From contig CANQRR010000009.1 of NCBI GenBank assembly GCA_947626285.1, positions 23,484 through 87,483 on the forward strand: a stretch of DNA of 64,000 nucleotides, written 5' to 3'. Below are positions 10,217 to 14,523 of the stretch, in pieces. The translations under genes and the position numbers were made by a program. The DNA is from an uncultured Lachnospiraceae bacterium. Lineage in GTDB: Bacteria > Bacillota > Clostridia > Lachnospirales > Lachnospiraceae. Below the pieces are notes generated by a model that had not been told where the DNA came from, made no database searches, and saw nothing but the letters and a program-made list of their open reading frames with translations. Numbering within the stretch: the first letter of the stretch is position 1; every line of letters begins with the position of its first letter.

Positions 10217-10735
10217 ATGAAACGAAAAATCACAATGGCGGTGCTGATCCTGCTGTTTTTGCTCCTGCAGTCTACGCTGTGCCAGAAGATCGCGGTGGCC
10301 TCGATCAAACCGAATCTGCTGATCATTCTGATCGTATCGTTCGGGCTGATGCGCGGGCGGAGATCCGGCATGATGATCGGATTCTTCTGCGGGCTGCTTG
10401 CGGATATCTTTTTTGAGAGCATCATCGGGTTCAACGCGATCATTTACATGTGGGTCGGTTATCTGAGCGGCTATTTTTACCGGATCTTTTACGACGACGA
10501 CATCAAGACGCCGCTGTTTCTGATCTCGGTCAGCGATCTGGCTTACGGGATCATCCATTATTGCTTCCGTTTCCTTTTGCGCGGGCGCATCCGGTTTTTT
10601 ACCTACCTGGGCCGGGTGATCCTGCCGGAAGTGTTCTACACGCTGATCCTGACGATCATCTGTTACCGGATCCTGTATCAGATCAATCAGTGGCTGAATC
10701 TGAGTGACAACAGAGGAGTGGACGGTTTTGTTTGA
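10217..10735 (+). CDS. mreD: Rod-shape-determining protein MreD
   Basis: Very hydrophobic protein of 172 residues with about five membrane helices (MAVLILLFLLLQS, LLIILIVSFGLMRG, GFFCGLLADIFFE and others). The FGLMRGRRSGMMIGFFCGLLAD segment, with its aspartate, is typical of MreD. The ATG at 10217 has GGAG nine bases ahead and begins MKRKITMA; the track's TTG at 10187 is less likely. The stop overlaps the start of the PBP2 gene. MreD is an integral part of the elongasome. Confidence 0.88.
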   Translation: MKRKITMAVLILLFLLLQSTLCQKIAVASIKPNLLIILIVSFGLMRGRRSGMMIGFFCGLLADIFFESIIGFNAIIYMWVGYLSGYFYRIFYDDDIKTPLFLISVSDLAYGIIHYCFRFLLRGRIRFFTYLGRVILPEVFYTLILTIICYRILYQINQWLNLSDNRGVDGFV

Positions 10736-13640
10736 AGAAATGAAAAAAACCTTTGTCAAAGCGGTGAATTCCAGGGTGATCGTGATGATCGTCGTGCTCG
10801 TCCTGCTGGCTGCGATTTTGGTACAGAGGCTGTTTCAGCTTCAGATCGTACAGGGAGAAAGCTTCCAGGACAATTTCTCGCTTTATATCACGAGGGAGCG
10901 CTCGCTCAAGAGCTCACGCGGCAACATTTTCGACCGCAACGGCAATCCGATCGCGTACAATGAGCTTTCCTACTGCGTGACGTTCGAGGACAACGGCACC
11001 TATGCGGACACGCACACAAAGAATCTTGCGCTCAACGGCATGCTCTATCATCTGATCCAGCTGCTTGCGGAGCAGGGCGACACCGTGGTGGACGATTTCC
11101 GGGTGGAGCTGACGGAAGATGGCACCTACGAGTACAACGCGAGCGGATTTACATTAAACCGCTTTAAGGCGGACCTGTTCGGACAGGCTCTGATCGACGA
11201 CCTGAAAGAGGAGGAGCTGAACATCACCGCGCCGGATCTGATGGCGCTGCTGTGCGACGAGGAGCATTACGGAATCTTTGACAGCAAGATCACTGCCGAG
11301 GAGAGAGAGGAGTACGGACTGCCGGAGAGCTATACGGACGTGGAGATCCTGCAGCTTGTCTCTCTGCGCGCGGCGATCGCGGCCAACAATTTCCAGCGCT
11401 ACCAGGCGGTCACGATCGCGCGGGACATCAGCGAGCAGTCCGTCGCGCGGATCCTGGAGAACATCGCGGATTTCCCAGGGGTGGCTATCTCAGAAGAATA
11501 CCGCAGGATCTACACGGACGCCGAATACCTGGCGCCGCTGATCGGTTACACGGGAAAGGTCTCCGCCGAGGAGCTGGAGGAGCTCCGGAAAGAGGATGAC
11601 AGCTACACGGCCAACGACATCGTGGGAAAGACCGGCCTGGAGAGCGTTCTGGAGACGACGCTGCAGGGCGACAAGGGCCGGGAGGTCATCTACGTGGACA
11701 GCCTCGGCCGTACGCTCGACGTTGCGTCGCGCGTGGAACCGCAGGCGGGCAACGACGTCTATCTGACGATCGACATGGACCTGCAGCGCGCGGCTTACCA
11801 GCTTCTGGAGCAGTATATTGCCGGTATCGTTTACCAGATGATCATCAATGAGGCGGAGTTCCACTCTGAGTGGATCACATCCTCCGACGAGGTAAAGATC
11901 CCGATCTACGATATCTACTACGCGCTGTTTGAGAACAACGTGCTGGATGTCAGCCATCTGAAGGCGAAGGACGCGTCGGCCAACGAGCGGGCAGTCTACA
12001 AGGCGTTTCAGAGCAAGGCCGCTGAGATCTTTGAGATCATCAAGAATGAGCTGCTGACAGAAGCTCCGACGGCCTATCAGGATCTGGACGAAGCCTATGA
12101 GATCGGCGAGCAGTACCAGGTCTATATGTCCTATATCGTCAACGAAATGCTGATGAAGGGCACCGGCATCCTCAATGAGTCCGCGATCGACAAGACGGAT
12201 CCCGTCTATCTGGCGTGGACGGAGGATGAGAGCATCAGCCTCAAGGAGTATCTCTCCCATGCGATCTCCATGAACTGGCTGGACATCACCAAGATCTCCG
12301 GCGACGCGCAGTACATGGATACGCAGGAAATGTATGCGGCGCTCGCGGATTACATCGCGGATTATCTCTACGAAGACGACAATTTCTGTAAGCAGGTCTA
12401 CCGCTACATGCTGCAGGAGGACCGCATCAGCGGCGCGGACATTTGTCTGCTGCTGTTCGACCAGGGCGTGCTCGAGATGAACGCCGAGGACTATGAGAAT
12501 CTTCAGAACGGGACGCTCGGCGGCTACGATTTCATGCGCGAAAAGATCTATAACCTTGAGATCACGCCGGCGCAGCTCGCGGTGACGCCGTGCTCCGGCT
12601 CCGTCGTCCTGACCGATCCGAATTCCGGCGAAGTGCTGGCCTGCGTGACCTACCCGGGCTACGACAACAACCGTCTCGCAAACGAGATGGACAGCGATTA
12701 TTTCAACAAGCTGAACATGGACAAGTCGTCGCCGTTCTACAGCCGCGCGACGCAGGAGGCGATCGCGCCGGGTTCCACGTTCAAGCTCGTCACCGCGGTG
12801 GCAGGCGTCATGGAGGGTGTGCTGAACATCGGGGAGGCGATTTCCTGTACCGGAAAGTTTGAGCTCTGGGGATCGGCGATCAATTGCTGGAACAAGTGGG
12901 GACATGGAGCGCTCACGCTTCAGCAGGCGATCACGAAGTCCTGCAATATGTTTTTCAACACAGTCGGCTACCGTCTCGGCAGCGTGAACGGGGAGTATGA
13001 GGATGCCGTCGGCATCGAGGCGCTGACGCGCTACGCTTCGATGTTCGGGCTGAATGAGGAGTCAGGCGTGGAGGTGCCGGAGTCCTCGCCGAATATTTCC
13101 CAGATGGACGCTGTGCGTACCGCGATGGGACAGGCGGACAACCTGTTCACGACGACGCAGCTGGCGCGCTACGTCAGTACGATCGCCAACGGCGGCACCT
13201 GCTACAAGCTGACGCTGGTGGACGCGATCACGGATTCGAGCGGAAGCGTGCTTGAGAAGCATCAGGCGGAGGTGACAAACACCGTGGATCTCCCGCAGGA
13301 GCTGTGGGATACGATCCACGCGGGAATGCGTGGCGTGGTACAGGATCACAAGGCGTTTACCGGCTTCACGGGCGTATCCGTGGCGGGCAAGACCGGTACG
13401 GCACAGGTGAGCACGGACGTGCCGAACCACGGCCTCTTTATCGGTTACGCTCCCTACGAGAATCCGCAGTCCGAGGATGCGATCGCGATCGCCGTGCGTA
13501 TCGCGAACGGTTATTCGTCGGCGAACGCGGCGCTGCTGGCGCGCGACGTGATCTCTTACTATTACGAGATCCAGCCGGAGGATCAGCTTGTCACCGGTCA
13601 TGCGTCGGAGGCGTACGACGACTACGACATCAACGACTAA
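10728..13640 (+). CDS. mrdA: Penicillin-binding protein 2 (elongasome transpeptidase), enlarged
   Basis: Class B PBP that cross-links lateral wall peptidoglycan with RodA. One N-terminal helix (VIVMIVVLVLLAAILVQRLF) is followed by the dimerisation domain motif SSRGNIFDRNGNPIAYN. The transpeptidase domain has the catalytic STFK near residue 681, SCN in KSCNMFF, and KTGTAQ near 886. At 970 residues it is well above the usual 600-720. The excess lies between TIDMDLQ (about 346) and VVLTDPNSGEVLA (about 622), where the family normally has a few dozen residues. I prefer the TTG start at 10728, because AGAGGAG lies nine bases upstream and TTGTTTGA overlaps the mreD stop. Confidence 0.92.
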   Translation: MFEEMKKTFVKAVNSRVIVMIVVLVLLAAILVQRLFQLQIVQGESFQDNFSLYITRERSLKSSRGNIFDRNGNPIAYNELSYCVTFEDNGTYADTHTKNLALNGMLYHLIQLLAEQGDTVVDDFRVELTEDGTYEYNASGFTLNRFKADLFGQALIDDLKEEELNITAPDLMALLCDEEHYGIFDSKITAEEREEYGLPESYTDVEILQLVSLRAAIAANNFQRYQAVTIARDISEQSVARILENIADFPGVAISEEYRRIYTDAEYLAPLIGYTGKVSAEELEELRKEDDSYTANDIVGKTGLESVLETTLQGDKGREVIYVDSLGRTLDVASRVEPQAGNDVYLTIDMDLQRAAYQLLEQYIAGIVYQMIINEAEFHSEWITSSDEVKIPIYDIYYALFENNVLDVSHLKAKDASANERAVYKAFQSKAAEIFEIIKNELLTEAPTAYQDLDEAYEIGEQYQVYMSYIVNEMLMKGTGILNESAIDKTDPVYLAWTEDESISLKEYLSHAISMNWLDITKISGDAQYMDTQEMYAALADYIADYLYEDDNFCKQVYRYMLQEDRISGADICLLLFDQGVLEMNAEDYENLQNGTLGGYDFMREKIYNLEITPAQLAVTPCSGSVVLTDPNSGEVLACVTYPGYDNNRLANEMDSDYFNKLNMDKSSPFYSRATQEAIAPGSTFKLVTAVAGVMEGVLNIGEAISCTGKFELWGSAINCWNKWGHGALTLQQAITKSCNMFFNTVGYRLGSVNGEYEDAVGIEALTRYASMFGLNEESGVEVPESSPNISQMDAVRTAMGQADNLFTTTQLARYVSTIANGGTCYKLTLVDAITDSSGSVLEKHQAEVTNTVDLPQELWDTIHAGMRGVVQDHKAFTGFTGVSVAGKTGTAQVSTDVPNHGLFIGYAPYENPQSEDAIAIAVRIANGYSSANAALLARDVISYYYEIQPEDQLVTGHASEAYDDYDIND

Positions 13641-13641
13641 A

Positions 13642-13826
13642 GTGATAGAGCCCGGTCTCTATGCGAAACCGGGCGGCAAACTTGTTTGCCAGGCCGATTT
13701 CGCATAAGAGACGCTAACATACTTGAGCAAAGAAGCAATTGCGAGCGCAAGTGAGCAATGCGATTTGCGAAAAATATGCAGGATCGTGAGAGTGCGCAGC
13801 ACGGAACGATCCGCAGGCTCTATCAC
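13642..13826 (+). ncRNA. Highly structured intergenic element upstream of minC
   Basis: The PBP2-minC gap is almost wholly made of complementary segments. An outer 11-bp perfect stem (GTGATAGAGCC at 13642, GGCTCTATCAC at 13816) encloses three hairpins. The first is a 14-bp stem GTCTCTATGCGAAA/TTTCGCATA(A)GAGAC (13655-13712), topped by GGCAAA-CTTG-TTTGCC. The second is TTGC-GAGC-GCAA (13739-13750). The third is GGATCGT/ACGATCC (13781-13812), containing GTGC-GCA-GCAC. The outer stem closes five bases before the minC Shine-Dalgarno. It may be a cis-acting RNA, a processed small RNA or a palindromic interspersed repeat; I match it to no known family. The structure is seen in the sequence; any function is inference. 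Confidence 0.6.
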
Positions 13827-13845
13827 AGTAAAAGGAGTGAAAACA

Positions 13846-14523
13846 ATGGGACGCGATGCGGTAACCCTTAAGAGCAATCCATACGGACTTATATTGAACC
13901 TGGATCCGGCGCTTCCGTTTGAGGAGCTCTGCGCGGCGGTCGCGGAAAAATTCCGGAGGTCGTCAGGCTTTTTCAAGAATGCAAGGCTGGCGCTGACTTT
14001 CCGGGGCAGGGTGCTCACGCATGAGCAGGAGTCCCGGCTGATCGAAGCAATCGTTCAGAACTCCAAAATTGAGATCGTCTGCGTCGTCGACGAAGATAAA
14101 GGTACGGAAGAATACTATCGGAAAGCCGTCACGCACACGCTGGAGAAGCAGGAAGAGGCGGACGGACAGTTCTATCGGGGAACACTGCGCTCCGGGCAGG
14201 TGCTTGAGACGGAAACCAGCGTCGTCATCATCGGCGACGTGAATCCGGGCGCTCAGATCATCTCCAAGGGAAACATCGTGATCCTAGGCTGCTGCATGGG
14301 GAATATCTACGCGGGAGCCGCGGGGGATCGGAAGTGCTTCGCGGCGGCACTCACGATGAAGCCGATGCAGGTGCGTATCGCGGACAAGATCGCGCGCAGC
14401 GCCATTGTAAAACAGACAGACAGCGGAGAATATCCGGTGGAACCAAAAATTGTGTATATCAAGGACGATCATTTGCAGATCAAGCCCATTACCAATGATA
14501 CGCTCGGTGAATATCTCTCGTAG
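13846..14523 (+). CDS. minC: Septum site-determining protein MinC
   Basis: Protein of 225 residues. The N-terminal domain (about 1-100) is the FtsZ-inhibiting part; the C-terminal half, with RSGQVLETETSVVIIGDVNPGAQIISKGNI, is the beta-helical MinC dimerisation and MinD-binding domain. It blocks FtsZ ring assembly at the poles in complex with MinD. The start at 13846 follows a clear AAAGGAG; the longer track ORF reads back through the structured element and is not supported. minD and minE follow in order. Confidence 0.93.
   Translation: MGRDAVTLKSNPYGLILNLDPALPFEELCAAVAEKFRRSSGFFKNARLALTFRGRVLTHEQESRLIEAIVQNSKIEIVCVVDEDKGTEEYYRKAVTHTLEKQEEADGQFYRGTLRSGQVLETETSVVIIGDVNPGAQIISKGNIVILGCCMGNIYAGAAGDRKCFAAALTMKPMQVRIADKIARSAIVKQTDSGEYPVEPKIVYIKDDHLQIKPITNDTLGEYLS

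Follow-up and report, generated by a model that had tools for sequence, protein, structure and literature searches.

The structured element between PBP2 and minC is a copy of Rfam family RF01699, very probably a short transposable element of Lachnospiraceae with a conserved RNA fold

The 185-nt structured element between PBP2 and minC in the window (the whole 64,000-nt stretch of DNA that was analysed, from an uncultured Lachnospiraceae bacterium) is a copy of Rfam family RF01699. This family is very probably a MITE (short non-autonomous transposable element) with a conserved RNA fold, found in Lachnospiraceae and neighbouring families. Since RF01699 behaves as a transposable repeat scattered over genomes, the copy at PBP2-minC is a chance insertion and not a dedicated switch for the cell-division genes.

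When the window was scanned with Rfam 15, RF01699 (Clostridiales-1) matched positions 13646-13822 (+) with 94.1 bits (gathering cut-off 48; E-value 7.9e-20), and the preliminary description, which knew of no RNA family of this form, is corrected on this point. The alignment was full-length (model positions 1-166), and the outer stem of the window copy exceeds the model by 4 bp on each side. No second RF01699 copy was found within the 64-kb window. Weinberg et al. 2010 (PMC2864571) classed Clostridiales-1 as probably an RNA, without a cis-regulatory role, and the Rfam type of RF01699 is 'Gene; sRNA'. The window copy has the identical three-hairpin closed architecture of the published RNA (PMC2864571) and the taxa agree (Clostridiales, gut); the difference is that the family emerges here as a transposable repeat, interspersed in genomes, and that its 3' end lies past the model. 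Within the literature searched, Weinberg et al. 2010 alone describes the family, and no publication tying RF01699 to a transposon was found, which is weak evidence as the subscription literature lay mostly outside the search. As far as the literature was searched, the mobile nature and the partner insertion sequence (IS) of RF01699 are new, while the family itself is already in Rfam.

The element lies on the same strand as PBP2 and minC (Table 1). Its outer stem is a perfect 11-bp helix, and the stem of hairpin 1 has 14 bp with one bulge and encloses a tetraloop hairpin. Hairpin 2 is irregular, with 13727-13768 paired in the minimum free energy (MFE) fold, and hairpin 3 is built of GGATCGT...ACGATCC (7 bp) and GTGC...GCAC (4 bp). 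The MFE was -87.1 kcal/mol, compared with -52.3 +/- 3.9 in dinucleotide shuffles (n=200), none of which was as low (z -8.87). The fold claimed in the preliminary description is thus real and its stems are as described. Its remark that nearly every base is structured was slightly overstated: in the MFE fold, runs of 14 and 8 nt remain single-stranded. The outer stem had also rightly been said to end at the minC ribosome site, as AAGGAG starts 5 nt past the stem. No promoter or terminator signal was found when the window copy was searched.

Table 1 Features of the PBP2-minC region of the window
Feature	Position	Strand	Basis or remark
PBP2 gene	10704..13640	+	upstream of the element; homologue adjoins minC in relatives
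RF01699 mobile-element copy, second subfamily (AAAGCCCGGTCTC-type)	13642..13826	+	fold; multi-copy family; empty gap in relatives
Outer stem, left arm GTGATAGAGCC	13642..13652	+	MFE fold; counterpart stem in G022 altered in both arms
Hairpin 1, long stem and inner tetraloop hairpin GGCAAAC UUGU UUGCC	13655..13712	+	fold; homologous hairpin in Rfam model
Hairpin 2 of Rfam model, internal motif TTGAGCA ... TGCGAA	13718..13775	+	fold; Rfam alignment
Hairpin 3, bipartite, 7+4 bp	13777..13815	+	fold; covariation; longest-surviving remnant in sister species
Outer stem, right arm GGCTCTATCAC	13816..13826	+	MFE fold
minC gene	13846..14523	+	downstream of the element; ATG at 13846; ribosome site AAGGAG at 13832-13837

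A count of copies in the genome of the window, as the preliminary description had advised, gave 10 RF01699 matches at an E-value of 0.001 or lower, of which seven are above the cut-off, and blastn added a few fragments. They are old: identity to the closest counterpart never exceeds 0.71. Higher numbers were observed in the genus-mates G003 (36 copies), G031 (61) and G007 (59), whereas Parablautia sp. Marseille-Q6255 and strain 1XD42-54 of the same genus carry few. In these three genomes the median core identity to the nearest copy was 95-97 %, and the flanks were 56-57 % identical, which is background. Some copies are 97-100 % alike despite unrelated flanks, and the seven copies of G266, from another genus, are at most 1 nt apart. 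In an even draw of 294 genomes of the order, RF01699 was present in 91, which belong to 48 of the 144 genera, with a patchy distribution and often many copies per genome; none of 14 control genomes contained it. No copies of the window element were found by blastn in plasmid and phage collections. A tally of gene orientation, roughly scored from the longest open frames, placed 8 of 96 copies in convergent gaps and 36 in divergent gaps. By this rough method, the shunning of convergent gaps is consistent with a preference for AT-rich upstream DNA.

Two subfamilies were distinguished. Among the copies of the main subfamily, sequence conservation extends beyond the Rfam 3' end to TTTGACCCCARCATCA, which repeats the 5' end TGATGCCAGGGTCAAA imperfectly and in inverted orientation, so that the 3' end of the element is about 16-35 nt outside the model. 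The terminal inverted repeats that bound the element are 16 nt long and imperfect (TGATGCCAGGGTCAAA at the 5' end, TTTGACCCCAACATCA at the 3' end), and the end motif was counted 106 times in G007, 31 times in G003 and never with the reversed-pattern control. Among 32 copies from G003, G007 and G031, 21 are flanked by exact 5-bp target duplications (0.7 expected by cross-pairing) and two more by 6-bp duplications. In G266 and G147, which belong to other genera, 13 copies include eight with 5-bp and three with 6-bp duplications, bringing the total to 34 of the 45 main-subfamily insertions tested. The duplication consensus is T...A and AT-rich. The main subfamily therefore shows the traits by which MITEs are recognised: inverted repeats, duplications of fixed length, an autonomous partner whose ends it shares, absence of coding capacity, many copies (up to 61 per genome) and recent mobility (the G266 set). 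An interspersed palindromic repeat, the other possibility raised in the preliminary description, is supported by the ten copies in the own genome, the dozens in relatives, and the duplications and matching IS of the main subfamily.

The matching IS was found in G007, where an inverted pair of ends encloses 1867 bp with the gene for a transposase of 536 aa. The right end of this IS agrees in 17/17 nt with the 3' end of the short copies in that genome. DUF772 and DDE domains are present in the transposase. Among the NCBIfam models IS1182 (NF033551) fits it best, with a score of 124.9 bits that falls below the equivalog cut-off of 270; it is therefore a distant relative or sister group rather than a proven member of IS1182. 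Relatives of this IS are present in G067 (95 % identical) and G063 (60 %), and the G063 element has ends of the same kind and a 6-bp duplication, TCTGTA. From the shared ends, we infer that the short main-subfamily copies would be mobilised in trans by this IS1182-related DDE transposase. No protein of the partner IS family was found in the genome of the window itself. We also considered locus L209 (G007:C15) as an autonomous element, as end-like sequences 1.3 kb apart flank an ordinary 398-aa ORF there. The ORF does not resemble a transposase by eye, and the locus was set aside as a pair of separate short copies or of remnants.

Folded transcripts are known from other bacterial MITEs, namely RUP and BOX of pneumococcus, ERIC of enterobacteria and Correia/NEMIS of Neisseria, and RUP is moved by an IS630 relative. 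RF01699 resembles them in its size class (about 100-200 bp), mostly intergenic location, imperfect palindromes and high copy number, as well as in the borrowed transposase and the occasional placement within operons. It differs in that its fold is more strongly conserved and of RNA type, with covarying inner hairpins, and in that the partner of the main subfamily is IS1182-related.

Many copies are followed head-to-tail by a second copy, which is often 3'-truncated at variable points (L122, L137, L141, L144, L146, L147 and L179). The same arrangement was seen in G056 (L181 and L182), as if copying had overrun one round. At another locus of G056, which belongs to a distant family, hairpin 3 is present in about four tandem repeats with GATTGCGGGAGCGCGACAGCGCGGAGCAATC units (L183, G056:C1:766371-767343).

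The window copy and most other copies in its genome belong to the second subfamily, AAAGCCCGGTCTC...GGGCTTT. On the left its copies share the fixed context TTTACT(A/G)T(A/G)AAAGCC; on the right there is often a small 3' hairpin, after which TTTACT or a truncated second copy comes. In G031 and G007 highly identical copies occupy unrelated sites, and a second, truncated copy often comes next. As it is repeated with high identity at unrelated sites, the second subfamily is mobile too. No sharp target duplication was found over a grid of end offsets with lengths 4-9, where only trivial TTTA matches appeared, so its mobility is argued from how many copies there are, how alike they are and how their placement varies in G007 and G031. 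The inverted-repeat test on this subfamily returned only the 11-bp outer stem. The window copy is flanked by ACTAAA/AGTAAA, a possible 6-bp duplication in which one position differs. Among the places listed for G007 and G031, no clear inverted pair of TTTACTRTRAAAGYCC left ends at IS spacing, as expected of an autonomous partner, was found. One weak match in the own genome (L010, G000:C43) has another stretch, structured-RNA-like by eye, fused to a hairpin 3 like that of RF01699; it is probably a partial copy and no full element.

When the PBP2-minC gap was read in about 30 genus-mates, with MinC as the anchor, it was mostly 14-44 nt long and element-free; a few genus-mates have a longer gap of 97-123 nt without a recognisable element. 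By name, the closest relatives of the window genome are rabbit-gut 'Lapin' MAGs, and the other named relatives, all Lachnospiraceae, are Candidatus Choladousia and Parablautia sp. Marseille-Q6255. MinC of the closest species is about 88-91 % identical to that of the window. The close sister species G022 has the same insertion with its middle deleted and an outer stem, CTTGATAAAGCC/GGCTTTATCAAG, that is altered in both arms relative to the window copy. Just a fragment of hairpin 3 is left in the gap in G005, G068 and G069 (hairpin 3 remnants at sister-species loci L042, L045 and L046), and no remnant is left in G009, G028 and G034, which are among the closest species. An Rfam scan of the loci of 11 relatives detected RF01699 in the G022 remnant and in none of the other ten. 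The simplest history read from these gaps would be a single insertion that predates the split of the subclade, followed by decay. A lineage-specific insertion into the mre-PBP2-minCDE region would thus have occurred in the ancestor of a small clade and would now be eroding in most sister species.

The preliminary description had suggested a regulatory RNA that would uncouple the levels of PBP2 and the Min proteins. As a cis-regulatory RNA dedicated to the operon, it would set MinC relative to PBP2. The position on the coding strand exactly between the two genes, ending just ahead of the ribosome site, is in line with this, as is the outer stem in G022, which is preserved through changes on both sides despite the deleted middle. 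However, such a role is very improbable. The locus-specific reading fails because the gap is empty in most relatives and the remnants are decayed in most sisters; moreover, the same element is found elsewhere beside unrelated genes, and the signals of transcription start or end sought at the element were not found. Under the chance insertion that we favour, read-through of the operon mRNA would let the element fold as drawn and serve at most as a passive spacer or an RNase-resistant block, and dedicated control of PBP2 or MinC would not be expected.

The preliminary description had also proposed a search for compensatory changes. When this was done family-wide with 32 diverged RF01699 copies, such changes were present, but they belong to the mobile family and not to the PBP2-minC locus. 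In this set 96.1 % of the cells pair, and 24 of the 27 pairs have changes on both sides. The covariation score was 0.571; shuffles gave 0.190 and slid versions no more than 0.105. Covariation was seen in helices 2-4 except for helix 4, whose pairing is weak. In all 121 copies examined the fold of the Rfam strand is better than that of the complement, by a mean of 5.6 kcal/mol per 100 nt, although these copies are related by descent and hence non-independent. G-U cells outnumber A-C cells by 9 to 3, and internal motifs such as ATGAG/CGAAT are near-invariant. With strong covariation and a strand bias, the RNA fold was therefore kept during the moves of the element. These patterns indicate that the transcript, or one strand of the DNA, was under selection as RF01699 moved. 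The fold is conserved more carefully than a plain MITE would require, so the RNA may have a function. We suggest tentatively, as a reading that is possible but doubtful, that RF01699 is a transposon-borne RNA whose fold was selected in one orientation and kept while the ends, and perhaps the transposase, changed between subfamilies, the RNA being the working part. Such an RNA would, for example, make insertion into operons harmless, shield mRNA ends or bind a host or element protein.

The changes on both sides of the pairs, the covariation above that of shuffles, the uniform strand preference and the near-invariant motifs would suit a genuine family of trans-acting sRNA genes that is carried by, or copied with, mobile DNA and whose RNA serves the element or the host. 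This may be so, but we consider it somewhat unlikely, as no promoter-like site was found at the window copy and copies erode freely at PBP2-minC. Covariation at transposon ends may also arise because one transposase reads both ends, but the inner hairpins are left unexplained thereby. By analogy with IS200/IS605 relatives, the hairpins might instead be a device at the DNA level, extruded as single-stranded DNA for recognition by a transposase. The second subfamily could fit, with its fixed left context, its lack of a target duplication at the offsets tested and its frequent 3' hairpin before TTTACT or a truncated second copy. The clear 5-bp duplications and the DDE-type partner of the first subfamily speak against it, and this explanation is improbable.

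With RF01699 read as a MITE, a family that Rfam has labelled a small-RNA gene for 16 years acts like mobile repeat DNA for which a transposase partner can be found, and the 3' end of the element is not covered by its model. Annotated genomes in which every copy is an "sRNA gene" would have to be read again, and gene-neighbour arguments from single copies, as at PBP2-minC, are unsafe. If a strand-specific fold is selected, RF01699 would be a tractable case of a transposon using RNA structure for life inside operons.

A nested repeat of about 50 nt was also observed, which consists of the hairpin GGTGCTGAGCGCCAGTGGCGCTCGTTTAGCACC followed by GACCGAAGCGGAGCGNAGA and occurs at varied places in RF01699 copies and elsewhere. 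It was seen at L117, L118, L120, L124 and L126 (G003), at L194-L200 (G031) and at L005 and L007 (own genome), and gave no Rfam match where tested. The pattern matched 7 times in the own genome, 25 times in G003, 16 times in G031 and 81 times in G007, compared with 0 for the reversed-pattern control. It has the look of a minute mobile hairpin in its own right.
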